Shown here piece by piece: positions 6,701-59,300 of a stretch of DNA of 64,000 nucleotides. Below the pieces are notes generated by a model. That model searched no databases. It was not told the DNA's origin and saw nothing but the letters and a program-made list of their open reading frames with translations. Numbering within the stretch: position 1 is the stretch's first letter; each line of letters opens with the position of its first letter. Where the stretch lies: positions 496,001-560,000 of the forward strand of contig OY540821.1 of assembly GCA_961205875.1 (NCBI GenBank), in the 5' to 3' direction. The position numbers and the translations under genes are program-made. This DNA is from Sialis fuliginosa. Lineage: Eukaryota > Arthropoda > Insecta > Megaloptera > Sialidae.

Positions 6701-6796
6701 ATAATGTTTTTACATAACCTCTTATTATTGTTTTCATAATGAAATAATTTTAAATTTTACAAATCATATCATTCGAAAATACACATTATGGTTATA

Positions 6797-7167
6797 CAGT
6801 AGAGCATCGATTATCCGAATACCGATCAACTAAAACATTGGTTAACCGAAAGCGTCCCAGTCGACAAATTCTTTGCACGCAATGTAAAATGTAAAAGCGA
6901 GTGACAGCTCTGAACTAAAGAAAATTTTGGATTTCTTTTCCTAAACTGAAGGCCCACTTTAATTTATTGCTTTATGTAAAGTTATTTGTAAGATGTGTGA
7001 TACAAAATATATACAGTTTTGTGTTTAATATCACTTTTTCTTTGTTTCATATTGCTCTTATGGCACTGATAATTTTTTTTTTCCTAATTGATCAGTTATC
7101 CGAAATATCAGTTAACCGAACACCCCCCGCCAGTCCCATATTGTTTTGAATAATCGATGCTCTACTG
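6797..7167. mobile_element. pogo/Tigger-like MITE
   Basis: Terminal inverted repeats starting CAGTAGAGCATCGATTAT; the left end follows TA and the right end is followed by CA, read as a mutated TA. Internal TTATCCGAA-like subterminal words resemble pogo/Tigger termini. 371 bp, no transposase. Confidence 0.65.
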
Positions 7168-7826
7168 CATCGCCAGCAATTATATAGAATGGCAACTCAA
7201 AATATTTATTTTTCGGTATATCACAGTATTATAACTTTTTTAATAAAAATGTCATCATTTGTTTGTAAAACTATTTTAATTATTTATTAATCAATAATGT
7301 TATTGAAGAAATATTAAAGGAGTTTATTGTGTGAATACCACATTAACAAATACATAAAATATATTATATTTATTGGATATTTAAATTTTAAGTTTCTCTA
7401 AAAGAATAATTAATGACAGATAAAAAATTTCATGACTATATTAAATAAAAATTTAACTAATCAATTTTCATATTTATTTTAGTATATGTATAATATAATA
7501 AATAAAAACAACTTGTTTGTCTAAACGTCATAAATTATATATTAAGAATATTTATAAACGCAAGCTTTCGATTCATAGAACAAAATGTAAGAACGATATG
7601 TACCTACCTATAATTGCCAGCTAGGTATATTTATAAACAAAATACTTTATATATTTCAGTTAGTACCTATAATTTTTGTAAATGAAATAAATTATTCAAG
7701 ACATATCTTATACACTGTTTAAAATTTGTAAACTTTTTGAAATTCATAAATTTATCTAATATAAAATAAAACACGTTTTCAAATATAAAACAACAAATAT
7801 ATATTAATTAATATAAATTACATACT
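7168..7826. other. No gene recognised; 3' flank of the RGG gene
   Basis: AT-rich, no recognisable element. The part next to 7827 would hold the 3' UTR of the minus-strand gene at 7827-8298; I could not pick a convincing poly(A) signal. Confidence 0.5.
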
Positions 7827-8298
7827 CTATGACATGTAAATATTAATAACTGATGGTCCCGGAGCACCTTTATTTGTGGTGCGGTGTGCACCACCGCGAC
7901 CACGTTTATAAAAACCGCGGGAACCGCGGTATGCGCCACCGCGACCACGTTTACTACCGCGGTGTGGCCCGGCACCACCTTTAAATTTTATCCAATAGTT
8001 TTTATTTTTATTTTTATTTGTTTGTTTTTCTGGTTCATGTTCATTCTCTCTGAAACAAGAAAATACAAATATTACAAAACTACTTACAAAAAAAATTTAC
8101 AAAAAACTGCTTACTTAATTTTTTTTTTTCGGATTTTTCATTTGTAGATTTATTTTCTATTTCGTTTCTGAAAAATATTTTTTTTTAAATAAACATTGTA
8201 TCATTAATAAACTATATAAATAAATTAAATTAAATTATTAAAACTTACATATCTGGCATTTTTTCGTCCTCGACTTTTTCTATTGTGACTTTTTCCAT
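7827..8298 (-). CDS. Small spliced RGG-box protein (108 aa)
   Basis: Three exons on the minus strand: 8298-8249, 8167-8114 and 8049-7827. Introns are 81 and 64 bp with GTAAGT/TTTTTCAG and GTAAGC/TTGTTTCAG sites, and the phases (2, then 2) join one open frame ending in TAG. The product starts with an acidic-basic, Lys/Glu/Asn-rich half (residues 1-52, beginning MEKVTIEKVEDEK), then an Arg/Gly-rich half with a duplicated KRGRGGA[YH]R unit and other RG dipeptides, and ends PSVINIYMS. RGG/RG tracts generally bind RNA and are arginine-methylation targets, so an RNA-binding or nucleolar role is an inference; I recognise no family. The RGG exon uses GC-rich Gly and Arg codons, unlike the AT-rich surroundings. 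Alternative: an exon set of a larger gene or a chance match, which the two consistent introns make unlikely. Confidence 0.72.
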
Positions 8299-9350
8299 TT
8301 TTTATATCAATGAAATGTTTTATTAAATTTCATTTGTTCTTTAATTTTTTTAAACGATGCCTTTGATCTAACTTGATTTTAAAAAGTTTAAAAATTCAAG
8401 TTTTAAACCATTTTTTTAAATATATAATTGGTTTGAAACTTGAATGAAGCGTCACCTTGCGTCACCTGTTTATAATTTTGTACGTCTGAAAATGTTTGTG
8501 TGTTTTGAAAATTGTTAAAGAGATATATAAGATAGGAGATATCACAAAAGTGAAAATTATCACATAATTATCGTCAGACAGGTATGTCAACATAATACTT
8601 TTGATTTGAAACCATTATTTTAGGGAATGCTACAATAAAAATTTAAAGATGTTATGTATTGAGTGTTTGTTCAGCGCGTGGAAGTTATAGATTAGGTAAC
8701 AAGCACACCATTTTTGTAACACATATCTGTCGTATTTTTTTTTCCTAAAAATACATTAAAGTACATTTATCAAATTTTAAAATAATTTTTTTTTGAAGTA
8801 GGTACATATTAATATTTTTCAATTTATGTTGACCTTCATATTTGTTACACCTCTACTCGTATATGTACATATAGTGAACACAGATCTTTTACAAACCAAA
8901 CTGATGATAATTGAAAATTGCAATTTACCTAAAAAAATAATTTGATTTTTTATTACAATATTAATAACAATAGTATGTAAATAATTCAAATATCTACACA
9001 CATACTTTTAGATTGGCCCTTAAATACTGCGGTATTTATTTCGATATGTTTATTAGTTCTGTAGGCATCTTCAAGACAGCTTATTATGTATGTATAAAGC
9101 GACCATATTAACTCACTTTTATTAGCTTGACCTGTAACATTGTAAGAAAATCTTACAAATCAATTTTCGCCCTCTTTTAATTTTCGTATCGAATTGAAAC
9201 ATTGCAAACTTATGCAATTATGGTGACAATACAATAATATGGTACCATCAATATTGTATGATGATAGATGCTTAAAGGGACACCTCAAGCCCTTCGAGTT
9301 TGGACTCGTTTGACTTATCTCAATGATAGGCGTGTTCTTAGTTTTTTAAA
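8299..9350. other. No gene recognised; 5' flank of the RGG gene
   Basis: AT-rich. Positions near 8535-8580 resemble the start of the dispersed repeat at about 290-340 (shared AAATTATCACATAATTATCG). No clear TATA box for the minus-strand gene. Confidence 0.5.
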
Positions 9351-9687
9351 CTATACCTTTTCAACTTCAAATTGAGACTAATCAATTTCAAATTGGGAAT
9401 AATCAATTTCAAATTGAGACTAAACAATTTCATATTGGGAATAATCAATTTCAAATTGAGACTAAACATTTTCAAATTGGGAACAATCAACTTCACTTTG
9501 AAATTAATTATTCCCAATTTGAAACTGTTTAGTCTCAATTTGAAATTGATTATTCCCAATATGAAATTGTTTAGTCTCAATTTGAAATTGATTATTCCCA
9601 ATATGAAATTGTTTAGTCTCAATTTGAAATTGATTATTCCCAATTTGAAATTGATTAGTCTCAATTTGAAAAGTTGAAAAGGTATAG
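9351..9687. repeat. Hairpin built of 21-bp palindromic tandem units
   Basis: A near-perfect inverted repeat bounded by CTATACCTTTTCAAC and its complement, with a short loop near 9500. Each arm is a tandem array of 21-bp monomers containing the quasi-palindrome CAATTTCAAATTG. Two monomer types alternate (ending GGGAATAA or GAGACTAA), giving a 42-bp higher-order unit. Because 21 is a multiple of 3, both strands stay open and translate to a heptad-like repeat; I treat these frames as by-products. Confidence 0.85.
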
Positions 9688-10619
9688 AATTTGTTTTAAA
9701 CATCAATTTTTAGGATGAAATTATAATGAATGTAAGTAAGTAAATATCATCAATAATTATGTTCGCTTTGAGTGATAACAGTTTGTTTTTTAATGATAGT
9801 TTGGACTTTCTCTCCATTATAACCAGTACATTTTGATGAATTTTTTGAAATGCTTTAATTATATAGACAATTTATATACAAATGAAATTAATAAAATAAA
9901 ATATGTTTCTGAACTTGGGGGTTTCAGGTGTGCTACAATGATACTTATGAAATAATTTTTTTAAATTTTTTGCTTGTTTTTCGATCTTGGCCAATTGTCC
10001 GTTTTCTCTTTAAACTATTTAATTTATCTGTTTTCATTGTTTTATTTAAATATTTAATTCTAATAAATGTACGTTGCAATATAAAAGTATCTTCAGGAAA
10101 ATTGTATTTTTGAATTATAGCACTGATTAATTTTTTTGTTACGCCAGATCCTTTATTTAATTTGTTTTTGTGGTATTCTAAAAATATATTATTCAGTAAT
10201 TTTGCTTGGGATAACCATTCTTCACTGGGCTCGGTTAATCCTCCAAATGAAAGACTTTGTAACCAAGAAGGTAGCGTATAGTTATGCTCTCTTTGGATTT
10301 TTGATATTTTATTTTGATACGTGTAATTTCCTAAATACTCATATTTATTTTTTAGTTTTTTTGCCACAAAACCAGCTATGTATTCAAATCCATCAGATTC
10401 GCTGATGACTGAAATTTGAAGATTATTAGTTGGAGACAATTCACTTTTTTCTTCTGACAAATCCATTTCATCGTAATTATCATTGTTGGTGTTTATATCA
10501 AGATTGGATTTTAATACAATTTCTGCTGTGATGAACTTATCTTGAGAAATATCTACAGTATTGACGTTACTGTGGATAATACCAGAATTTTTTCCTAAAA
10601 TAATCATTCTTATTCTATA

Positions 10620-11105
10620 CAGAGTAGTTCAATAGTGCGTCCGGCTTTCCTAGCGCACTTCCCATAGGAGATAGAAAAAAAGTTTGGTACATAATATTAT
10701 TGGTTTGAAAAGATCAACGTCGAAAAATTATTTTCAACAATACAGGGTGTCCCATTTTTGTGCTATAACAAAAACAAAGATTTTTTTGAATGGAATACCC
10801 TGTAACGTTTTATGTCTTCCGATGTCGTTTCTTAACCTCTACATTAACGTCTGTTCATTTTTTAATTTAGTGACAGTGTTGCCAAATTAGAATTTTTTTT
10901 CCGAAAAATAATCCAAATTCAGGCTCAACTATAAAAAATCGTAGCGACCTAATTTTTTTTGAAGTGATGAATTTCACCCTGTATTGTTGAAAATAATTTT
11001 ACGACGTTGATCTTTTCAAACCAATAATATTATGTACCAAACTTTTTTTTCTATCTCCTATGGGAAGTGCGCTAGGAAAGCCGGACGCACTATTGAACTA
11101 GCCTG
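10620..11105. mobile_element. Tc1/mariner-type MITE in P transposase exon 3
   Basis: Ends CAG(A/G)(G/C)TAGTTCAATAGTGC as inverted repeats of about 130 bp, flanked by TA on both sides. Removing the element and one TA restores NALYR-IRMIILG of the P transposase in frame. 486 bp, no transposase of its own. Confidence 0.88.
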
Positions 11106-12704
11106 TATAAAGCGTTAATAGGACTTGGGTGATCATTTAAACCTCCTCTCATTCTAATCTGAGAGAAAAAAATTTCAAGTAAGTCCTGATTTAATCTATG
11201 AGTCATTATATAGCTTACAGAGAATTTATTTTTCATGGCCTAGTATAATTGTTTTAAAGAAGAAATTGAAATAAGGACGGCTTTCTGAAATATTTGTAAC
11301 GAGAATTTATTTTTACAACGCATTGTTAGTACCAACTGATAAATGTCATCCAATTTTTTATTTTGATCAATTAAATTTGTTCCAAAAGGTCTTTTTGAAG
11401 GAATAGTTGCTCCTGCACCGTATGAATTCATAATATCAAACCATGCGTTAATTTGTTCGATAAATTCTCCTGTGTCGATGGCCAATTTTTTATTACACCC
11501 TGGTTGATATGTTTTTAATGCCGTCGCGGTGGAATGGGAAAGAAGTTGTGCAGCTAATAAAACATTTTGACGTTGCACCCTCGTACAATCTACATGTAAA
11601 TTTGTCAATTTAAAACAAGAATTTATTTCTGATCTTGTTTCTTTTACAAGAATTTCTACAGGTTCTTTTGTTATAAATGTTCCATCTTTTAGTACTTGTT
11701 TCTAAAACTTTAACTTTTTCTTTTAAATTTTTCATAACCCCAATATTGACGTTAAACTGTTCTTTTAGGTGATTATATTTCAGTAATAATGAATGATATT
11801 TATTTTCAAAAGAATTTTCTTTATTTGTAATAGGAACAGGCGCCGGATTTTCTTTGATAAACATATATTGCTGTGGAACATTAAGTAATTCTTGAACTAA
11901 TAATTTCTGTTGACGTTTTTGAACTTCATTATTTATATTCAAAATACTAGATGTGACATGATCAATTGTAGTAGTCATTTTTAAAGATGGTACAGCTGAA
12001 AATAATATAACATGACATTAAGTTCTATTTTATAACAAATATATATAAATTAGATCGAAAAAATGAAATATGTAATCAGAACTATAGATGTAAAGGAATA
12101 AGATGTTTTAATGTATGTATTTTAATCATTTGTAATGTGTATTCGTATAATCCTGGCAATGATGATAACAGTTGATGATCTATAACGCAGGTTACTCTTG
12201 TATAACTGATGTTTTCTTCATGTTTTAAGTACAAATTAGAATAGGTAAATAAAGTAGTGTTTTGATAATGTAGACTATGATTTTTAATGGAAATAGGAAT
12301 GGTCAGTATTGGTATGGGAGTGTTACATATCTACTTAGATTGTTAATAATGAAATAAAGGAATTTGTACAAAACAGCACGCCGTATCTGTAAAGAGTGAA
12401 AAAAATTATATTACTCTTAGATTAACTACTAATTAAAAAAATAAAAGATATTTGTCTACATACATCCGCTACTGCAAACATCGATTATGCAGTACATATA
12501 CAAACTCCTTCAATAGATTTCAAAGTGAATTATTGTAGGCATCTTTAAAACATTTTTATCTTAATTATATAATAATAATAAAATACTAAATAAAACCAAT
12601 TTTAAACATCAATCATTTTAATGAACTCTATATGTACTTGATAGTCTATGTAGTGCCAAATAAAATACTAGAATAATTTATGAAATATAATATAGCTCTA
12701 TATA

Positions 12705-33874: not shown

Positions 33875-34189
33875 ATGGTAAAGATTTTATTATTATTGAC
33901 GTTAACATTAAATGTAGTTGTGTTCAATTGTTATCCGGTTCTGGAAGAAAATACAGAAAACCATTTGGATGAGTTGTCCAATTTTGAAGCAGATATAGCC
34001 GACCAATATACTTTTGACTCAAATAAAACTTCCGACAAATATAAAAGAACTATTTTCCATGTTGCGATTACATGTCCGAGAGGTTACACATTAAATAGAA
34101 TAGGATTGTGTGTACGATGTTTAACAGACAGAAGAGGAAAATGTATAAGAAAATTTGTAGAAAAACCTGAATATACATTATACAGTTAA
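33875..34189 (+). CDS. Secreted cysteine-containing prepropeptide (104 aa)
   Basis: ATG in AACAATGG context, single open exon. Residues 1-20 form a signal peptide (MVK then a Leu/Val/Phe core, NCYP near the cleavage site). Residues 21-56 are acidic with one N-glycosylation site (NKT, 50-52). A dibasic KR at 57-58 could release a basic 46-residue peptide with four Cys (67, 79, 82, 90) in a CPRGYTLNRIGLCVRC core, enough for two disulfides. TATA box upstream and AATAAA 19 bp past the stop complete a compact intronless gene. The layout is that of a processed extracellular peptide (hormone, immune or gland product); the family is not recognised, so no function is assigned. Confidence 0.7.
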   Translation: MVKILLLLTLTLNVVVFNCYPVLEENTENHLDELSNFEADIADQYTFDSNKTSDKYKRTIFHVAITCPRGYTLNRIGLCVRCLTDRRGKCIRKFVEKPEYTLYS

Positions 34190-56339: not shown

Positions 56340-59300
56340 TTATAAGGGGTGCAGAGAAAAGGGCTTTTGACATGAACTCGCTGCAAGTTGGCCCTGCGGC
56401 GAGTTGTCATTAGAATGTGTTAATTTATGTGTATTCAAATGTCTTTTATGTCTGCAACTATATTCACATTGGTCGCATTTAAAAGGTCGGTCGTTAGAAT
56501 GTGTAAATGTATGTTTTTTCAAATGAATTTTTAGTCTGCAACTATATTCACACTGTTCGCATTTAAAAGGTCGTTCATTAGAATGTGTTAATTTATGTCT
56601 ATTCAAATTACCTTTATGTCTACATCTGTATTCACACCGGTCGCATTTCAAAGGTCGGTAATTAGAATGTGTTAATTTATGTGTTTTCAAATTATTTTTC
56701 AGTCTGAAACTATTTTCACACCGGTTGCATTTAAAAGGTCGGTCGTTAGAATGTGTTAATGTATGTTTTTTCAAATGAATTTTTAGTCTGTAACTATTTT
56801 CGCACCGGTCGCATTTAAAAGGTCGTTCATTAGAATGTATTAATTTATGTCTATTCAAATTACTTTTTTGTGTACAACTATATTCACATTGGTCGCATTT
56901 AAAAGGTCGGTCGTTAGAATGTATTAATTTATGTCTATTCAAATTACTTTTTTGTATACACCTGTATTCGCACTGTTCGCATTTAAAAGGTCCTTCATTA
57001 GAATGTGTTAGTTTATGTTTATTCAAATCACTTGAAAATAAAGTCTCATTAGTTAAGAGTTTTGTTTCTTCACTGATATCTTGATTTTCTGGTTGCTCAT
57101 TTTGAATGTCGGTGTCTGTCTGATTGTCTTCTTCATTGACTTCCAGGTCTTCCTGCAAAATAATATTTGATAACTCAATGCAATGTAGATTATCCATGGC
57201 TTCCACGGGGCTGACAGGACTCTAACCCTGGGGCTAAAAGAGGCCTTCAAAGTTGGCATTAATCAAAAAATGAAATAGTACATACATATTTTTATCTATA
57301 AGGTTTCAATATAATACTAAATTATGCAAAATATAACGGTACTTTAAGGATCGACAGACCTTTTCCAATCCCCATTAGACCCATCGGTGGAAGCGAGTTT
57401 TCTGCGGAGACTACAAGTTACATGATTACTAGAGATTGGAAAAATAGCACAGGTTTACAAAAAAACAAAAGTTTATGAATATTTGACGAGACCATTGTAT
57501 TCATATGTATTTTGACGTCCTGAATCCGAATATGAGGTCCGTTGACCTTGGTTAGCTCAGTTTCAAGGTCATTTTAAGGTCACATTTTTAAAAATCGCTA
57601 AATGATTCTGGTAAAAGGTGATACATAGGTTTTTCTGGTCGCTGATTCTGAATTTGACATCCGTTGACCTCTACGAGGTCAGGTTCAAGGTCATTTCAGG
57701 GTCAAAGTAGGAAAAATCACTCGAAAATTCTGACAAAACAGTACATATAGATTTTTGGTGTTGCTGAATTAAAATTTAAGGTCCGTAGACCCCTGCAATG
57801 TCAGTTTAAAGGTTATTTGAAGGTCAAATTTTTATTTATTAAAATCGCTAAATGTTTCTGGTAAAAGGTGTATATAGGTTTCTCTGGTCGCTGATTCTGA
57901 ATTTGACGTCCGTTGACCTCTATGAGGTCAGGTTCAAGGTCATTTGAAGGTCAAAGTGGGAAATATCGCTCGAAAATTCTGAAAAAACAGTACATATAGG
58001 TTTTTGGGGTCGCTGTATTAAAATTTGAAGTTCGTAGACCCCTACAATGTCACTTTCAAGGTTATTTCAAGTTAAATTTTTTAAAATCGCTAAATGAATC
58101 TGGTAAAAGGTGATATATAGGTTTCTCTGGTCGCTGATTCTGAATTTGACGCCTGTTGACCTCTACAAGGTCAGGTTCAAACTTATATGTACTGTTTCAA
58201 GCGATTTTTTCCACTTTTCCATGAAATGACCTTGAACTGACCTCGTAGAGGTCAACGGACATCAAATTCAGAATCAGCGACCAGAGAAACCTATATATCA
58301 CCTTTTACCAGATTCATTTAGCGATTTAAAAAAATAAAATTTTGATCTTAAAATGACCTTGAAATTGAAATTGTAGGGGTCTACGAACTTCAAATTTTAA
58401 TACAGCGACCCCAAAAACCTATATGGACTGTTTTGTCAGAATTTTCGAGAGATTTTTCCTACTTTGACCCTGAAATGACCTTGAACCTGACCTTGTAGAG
58501 GTCAACGGATGTCAAATTCAGAATCAGCGGCCAGAAAAACCTATGTATCACTTTTTACCAGAATCATTTAGCGATTTTTAAAAATGTGACCTTAAAATGA
58601 CCTTGAAACTGAGCTAACCAAGGTAAACGGACCTCAGATTCGGATTCAGGACGTCAAAATACATAAGAATACAATGGTCTCGTCAAATATTCATAAACTT
58701 TTTTTTTTTTGTAAACCTGTGTAGTTTTTCAACTATTGCGTAAAAATGCATTTATTGTAATTTGTATTACATATCTCCACCGTTTTCGGAAAACTGGTTT
58801 GATTGAACACGATTTGAAATCAACTATTTGCAACTACCTTTCCAACTATTTTTAAACTATTTGCGACAGTTTTTACTGCTTCGTTTGCACTAATTATTAT
58901 CAAATCGTAAAAAAAACTATTTACCAACTATTTTCCGAAAAAAAATTCAACTAGTAACTATTTCATTGAAACTAACAACTATTTTTCCAATCTCTAATGA
59001 TTACTTATTTTCGTGCTAAGTTTGAGTAGTGATTTTAGACAATTTTAAACATTTATTATGCAACCTTCAAGATTATACTCTATTTCATTTAAGAATGCAG
59101 TGGTTGCCGAGGTTTTGACGGTACGAATCGTGCATTTTTTTGGCATAAAACTTTATAATTTTTTTTTTGACTCATTACTATACCAATCGAGTAACAGCTT
59201 CAAACTATAACCAAATGAAAGTTTATATATTTTTCTATTGAAATGCCTGGCACAAAACTTATTATTTTTCTCAAAGGCTATATACAACTAGCGCGCTGGA

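Follow-up and report, generated by a model that had tools for sequence, protein, structure and literature searches.

The window analysed here (the whole 64-kb stretch of DNA, C13:496001-560000 in an assembly of 392 Mb and 20 contigs) holds on its minus strand a genuine gene skeleton of three exons for a small protein rich in arginine and glycine (Table 1). The skeleton opens with an ATG in good context (AAAAAATGG) at 8298, and the splice signals of the initial annotation are all present on this strand: the donors GTAAGT at 8248 and GTAAGC at 8114, and the acceptors ATTTTTCAG and TTGTTTCAG, which precede 8167 and 8049, respectively. The second acceptor is a tandem, CAG-AG-AG, whose second AG would start exon 3 at 8047. 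Exon 3 encodes YWIKFKGGAGPHRGSKRGRGGAYRGSRGFYKRGRGGAHR and ends in NIYMS-stop. The doubled KRGRGGA motif, already recognized in the initial annotation, corresponds to a duplicated unit of 28 nt whose two versions are 93% alike, and the longest stop-to-stop frame at the locus does, as had been remarked, lie on the plus strand (7854-8147, 97 aa).

Table 1. Parts of the window locus (window positions) and copies of the family in the assembly (contig positions; W, window copy)
Feature	Position	Strand	Remarks
5' flank	8299..8628	-	common to paralogues
Exon 1	8249..8298	-	50 nt coding, MEKVTIEKVEDEKMPD plus 2 nt
Intron 1	8168..8248	-	81 nt, GTAAGT...TTTTTCAG
Exon 2	8115..8167	-	53 nt, including 11 consecutive A; frame does not continue into exon 3 when the CAG acceptor is used
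Intron 2	8050..8114	-	65 nt, GTAAGC...TTGTTTCAG
Exon 3	7827..8049	-	223 nt; YWxxF, RG-rich repeats, NIYMS-stop at 7827
3' flank	6778..7826	-	part of unit common with the C9 copy
W, type I	C13:504298		position of ATG
C9, type I	C9:755446-756041		
C13b, type I	C13:495252-495656		directly left of window
C4a, type I	C4:35202207		
C4b, type I	C4:35220791		
C4c, type I	C4:35227428		
C4d, type I	C4:35239035		
C4e, type I	C4:35164212		
L034 (L038), type II	C4:35139549-35140002		
C9ii, type II	C9:749637-750042		
L041, type II	C9:705419		
L042, type II	C9:1068204		

The three-exon RGG-box gene of the initial annotation holds up as a family, given that a diverged paralogue of identical exon layout is intact and that splice sites are common to other copies, but not as the product that was drawn. 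The phases described as matching do not match, as exons of 50, 53 and 223 nt add up to 326, which is not a multiple of 3, and the junction drawn at 8114/8049 places the last exon base one position too late. Because that junction would require a TA-AG intron, and because the canonical GT-AG join of all three exons at the CAG acceptor reaches a stop after 54 codons, the 108-codon frame is unsupported in the window; the close sister C9 is also broken. When GT-AG models from the ATG at 8298 were enumerated within set distances, the RGG motif was reached by 10 models of three exons and 5 of two, the best-rated readings being skipping of exon 2, for which both splice sites are strong (90 aa), and use of a weaker acceptor 2 nt downstream (CAGAG, exon 3 from 8047; 107 aa). 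One base at a splice junction can thus decide an attractive gene model.

Through protein and DNA searches of the assembly, together with local comparison of fetched stretches, we identified at least 12 copies or part copies of the gene, of two subtypes and on three contigs (Table 1), as well as smaller fragments, for example at C4:35168354, 35225025 and 34524082 and at C9:738303, all counts being lower bounds. None of the 12 copies is farther than ~1.1 Mb from an end of its contig. The 64-kb window yielded no second copy (next tblastn match E 0.92), and weak genome matches at C5:18796163 (E 0.009, with stops), C4:9310920 (E 3.1) and C6:23609319 (E 0.24) were taken as unrelated. Exons are homologous, and intron positions and splice motifs common, among the copies; since introns and 5' flanks are shared, the copies were duplicated as DNA. 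The 5' flank of the window copy is ~97% identical to those of C9, C4d and C13b across ungapped columns of the 225 nt that precede the ATG, the match to C9 and C4d ends at 8628, and the unit from 8628 to 6778 is 90% identical to the C9 copy. Two instances of GGTGACGC (minus strand), 10 nt apart, lie in this flank at 8449-8466, versus one each in C9 and C13b.

With regard to how the copies spread, carriage by a transposon was considered and rejected, as the limits of homology vary by pair (-330/+1520, -460/+709 and -235/+361 relative to the ATG) and no fixed ends were seen. Ordinary DNA duplication fits these variable limits better, although some limits do repeat: two pairs end near +788 of L034 on the 3' side, and two begin at -205 on the 5' side. 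A viral, phage or bacterial origin was likewise set aside, the viral, prokaryote and phage collections having yielded no confirmed relative, a result with no bearing on conservation among insects. A tandem repeat of 166-167 bp lies between the two C9 copies (C9:750411-754380; L024 2412-3437 and 4005-6381), and a related array, of period 148 by TRF, lies near the C13b copy (L026 672-1115). In length, the 167-bp repeat resembles a 169-bp satellite of Myzus.

The RGG exon carries a coding signal of its own. G+C makes up 62 of 84 bases at codon positions 1 and 2 of its 42 RGG codons versus 15 of 42 at position 3 (Fisher p 8e-5, in a test whose repeat units are not independent). The GC-rich codons remarked on earlier are therefore so at the first two positions (0.71 and 0.76) and not at the third (0.36), a pattern set by the encoded amino acids, unlike that of a patch GC-rich throughout, and one that supports coding. 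A strict scan of the window (strong donor, pyrimidine-rich CAG acceptor, intron of 50-250 nt, at least 90 aa) returned a single model, exon 1 joined to exon 3 at 8298-7827, compared with one model in all from 40 shuffled windows; when the RGG patch was kept and the 600 nt upstream were shuffled, 0 of 4000 sequences had an in-frame strict model, these chance figures being rough because the limits, including that of 90 aa, were chosen with the candidate known. The locus is of low complexity, and the viral, prokaryote and phage collections, which do not include insects, held no confirmed relative, as might be expected if it were no gene at all but a GC-rich repeat flanked by chance splice motifs. 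An intact diverged paralogue, common introns, the codon-position pattern and the shuffling result argue against this explanation, which we regard as extremely improbable.

Elsewhere in the window, a minus-strand stretch at 9945-12017 holds fragments of a P-element-type transposase (Tnp_P_element_C, TNP-like_GBD), and two adjoining 42-bp minisatellites in opposite orientation (by eye) occupy 9361-9709 and are open on both strands. A 104-aa plus-strand ORF at 33875-34189, whose start is hydrophobic and whose tail contains Cys (CPRGYTLNRIGLCVRC), resembles a small secreted peptide and had no Pfam match up to E 1. On the minus strand at 56340-57221 a stop-to-stop frame of 293 codons contains repeated units of C2H2 zinc-finger type (motif by eye). 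Rfam gave no match at the gathering score across the whole window, and a sigma-70 promoter scan of the window is uninformative for this genome.

In a plain GT-AG, first-acceptor reading only one of the 12 copies, L034, is intact. It has coding exons of 8, 60 and 223 nt, GT-AG introns throughout and a 96-aa product (MEVITITEDNK...DYWRGF...HRGGHRG...NIIIYM), and is the best candidate for the family's working gene. When every exon is included and the first acceptor (CAG) is used, the other 11 copies carry a lesion of frame, splicing or truncation, some judged by eye. In the window copy this is the length of exon 2; in C9, C4d and C13b the frame changes ahead of the RGG tract. Among the remaining type I copies, C4a has a truncated exon 3 and an exon 2 of 35 nt, C4b has a frameshift within the RGG tract and an unrecognizable exon 1 and most of exon 2, C4c is truncated with CGG as acceptor, and C4e has the donor ATAAAT and lacks exon 3 at the site (by eye). 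In type II, C9ii has a 2-nt deletion in exon 3, L041 holds stops in exon 2, and L042 has lost the usual donor and has a TGA in the RGG tract (by eye). Frame-breaking changes in the RGG exon of relatives, which the initial annotation had named as telling against a gene, were sought in paralogues of the same genome; they occur in C4b, C4c and L042 and are absent within the RGG tract of C9, C4d, C13b and L034. Exon 1 leaves the same remainder, 2 mod 3, in all six copies measured (50, 41, 62, 62, 53 and 44 nt). Exon 2 is a multiple of 3 in C9, C4d, C13b, C4e, L034 and C9ii and not in the window copy, C4a, L041 or L042.

These observations bear on two ways in which the window copy could be a working gene. 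If exon 3 were spliced from the downstream acceptor at 8047, the product would be a 107-aa RGG protein very near that of the initial annotation. With exon 2 included and this +2 acceptor, three of the four type I copies tested are open through the RGG tract to a shared stop (W, 107 aa; C4d, 108 aa; C13b, 87 aa), and all three have the tandem CAGAGAG, which counts against decay in that the window copy would be intact. C4d and C13b are near relatives, however, so that these amount to about two independent cases, and C9 read in this way stops after 34 codons. Moreover, L034 is open with the first acceptor, the exon 3 of C4a and C4b is in the same phase, and the first AG of the tandem has the better context, splicing preferring CAG to GAG as an acceptor. 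We consider this reading unlikely. Skipping of exon 2 would instead yield a 90-aa protein through an in-frame join of strong sites, the sole strict-scan model in the window, and the truncated C4a would likewise be in frame as far as its RGG part reaches. Against it, the splice sites of exon 2 are still good, six other copies have an exon 2 whose length is divisible by 3, and skipping with the CAG acceptor leaves C9, C4d and C13b closed, making a working gene of this kind decidedly unlikely.

Comparison of the copies points to constraint in the past. In the RGG exon, dN/dS was 0.28-0.51 in all 10 pairs of five copies, on an alignment that crosses repeats and includes two close pairs with only 4 and 5 changes. 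The youngest pair that includes the window copy, W and C9, is equally diverged in the two compartments, at 9/310 for exons and 10/335 for introns plus 5' flank (ratio 1.0). Its RGG part shows five changes, 3 replacement and 2 silent, and at this low power the pair gives no sign of present constraint. Coding indels between the two (9, 3, 1, 36, 6 and 1 nt) are mostly multiples of 3 (4/6, versus 4/19 of non-coding indels), which argues against decay. Single-base coding differences sit in or beside runs of A, where assemblies can err.

In older pairs the exons are mostly the more diverged part. Exon divergence was 3.8-7.2 times that of introns plus 5' flank in 8 of 10 pairs, which share branches and are not independent (for example, W-C4d, 96/293 vs 17/339; L034-C9ii, 55/278 vs 6/217), the exceptions being W-C9 (1.0) and W-L034 (1.4). 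The contrast covers 10 of the 14 aligned pairs (C9-C4e, C4d-C4e, C9ii-L042 and L041-L042 were omitted) and excludes the rearranged 5' flank of L034-L042 (32/93) and the 3' flank throughout. In C4d-C13b (20/220) and L034-L041 (22/80) it is the 3' flank that has diverged more than the exons, and in L034-C9ii (14/77) the two are about equal; as this flank is not slow, the exon excess applies only in comparison with introns and the 5' side. Silent divergence is elevated too (e.g., exon 2 of L034-C9ii, S 4/12 and N 9/51). On these two grounds the exon excess, although it might suggest positive selection, does not show it. With silent sites elevated, the excess may reflect gene conversion affecting the flanks, rapid turnover of exons of low complexity or diversifying selection.

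We propose that the window copy is a member of a small multi-copy gene family and, with a probability of about 0.6, a decaying or marginal duplicate, as suggested by its equal exon and intron divergence from a sister, C9, that is broken too. The intact member has three exons and two short introns, and the protein it encodes combines a K/E-rich N-terminus with the YWxxF motif, a tail rich in RG and a short C-terminus of IYM type. The window copy retains the ATG, splice sites and RGG exon, yet its three-exon mRNA would end after 54 codons with the CAG acceptor, and an RGG protein would be made by skipping exon 2 (90 aa) or from the downstream AG (107 aa). A different and, in our view, improbable reading is that of a lineage-specific, rapidly diversifying RGG family near chromosome ends, possibly of germ-granule type, in which exons evolve several times faster than introns and the frame is restored time and again by tandem acceptors or by exon skipping, such that copies whose upstream exons are altered would still deliver the RGG tail. 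Should L034 be expressed, it would represent a class of small RGG proteins missed by simple ORF scans and Pfam, and the intact and broken copies together would form a natural set for testing the several-fold excess of exon over intron divergence.

In its 90-aa reading the window protein has a pI of ~10, with its first 33 residues acidic and the remainder strongly basic, and contains 8 arginines. Its 9 RG/GR steps in 45 residues are the highest count in all six frames of the window (next best 5), and, as in the RG/RGG class, several motifs lie close together. RG/RGG tracts bind RNA, become methylated and join in condensates, and among RG/RGG proteins of the nucleolus and of P granules the best known also have RRM, helicase or enzyme domains. 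From composition only, we infer that the family may bind RNA; the intact type would be disordered, basic and open to arginine methylation, and would bind RNA or aid RNA-protein condensates. Description of the gene as previously undescribed is not contradicted: Pfam gave nothing above cut-off for the window and L034 proteins, solved structures in the PDB matched at chance level only, and the literature matches listed for aphid RGG or arginine-glycine proteins included no such family. The glycine-rich family GRP (PF07172) was a weak match by composition only (E 0.066-0.13; 13.4 and 14.3 bits against a cut-off of 30).

Among known systems, the window protein resembles nucleolin, GAR1, fibrillarin, LAF-1 and PGL (PMC9633708) in its basic RG-rich tail with aromatic residues, and differs from nucleolin, GAR1 and fibrillarin in that none of their folded domains scored above the Pfam cut-off in it or in L034. 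P-granule proteins of C. elegans share a tyrosine-rich RGG motif, and nucleolar proteins a phenylalanine-rich one (PMC9633708); the window's RGRGGAYRG is nearer, by eye, to the P-granule motif RGGRGGYRGGD of that account than to the nucleolar type. A second comparison is with the bicycle genes of aphids. Bicycle genes have many microexons and a signal peptide. The window copy and L034 differ in having three exons, and the N-terminus of the window copy, MEKVTIEKVEDEK, is charged (by eye). At the same time, the bicycle genes, which the two reports concerned describe as gall effectors (PMC9168663, PMC13041983), are likewise multi-copy, fast-diverging and without similarity to known proteins.
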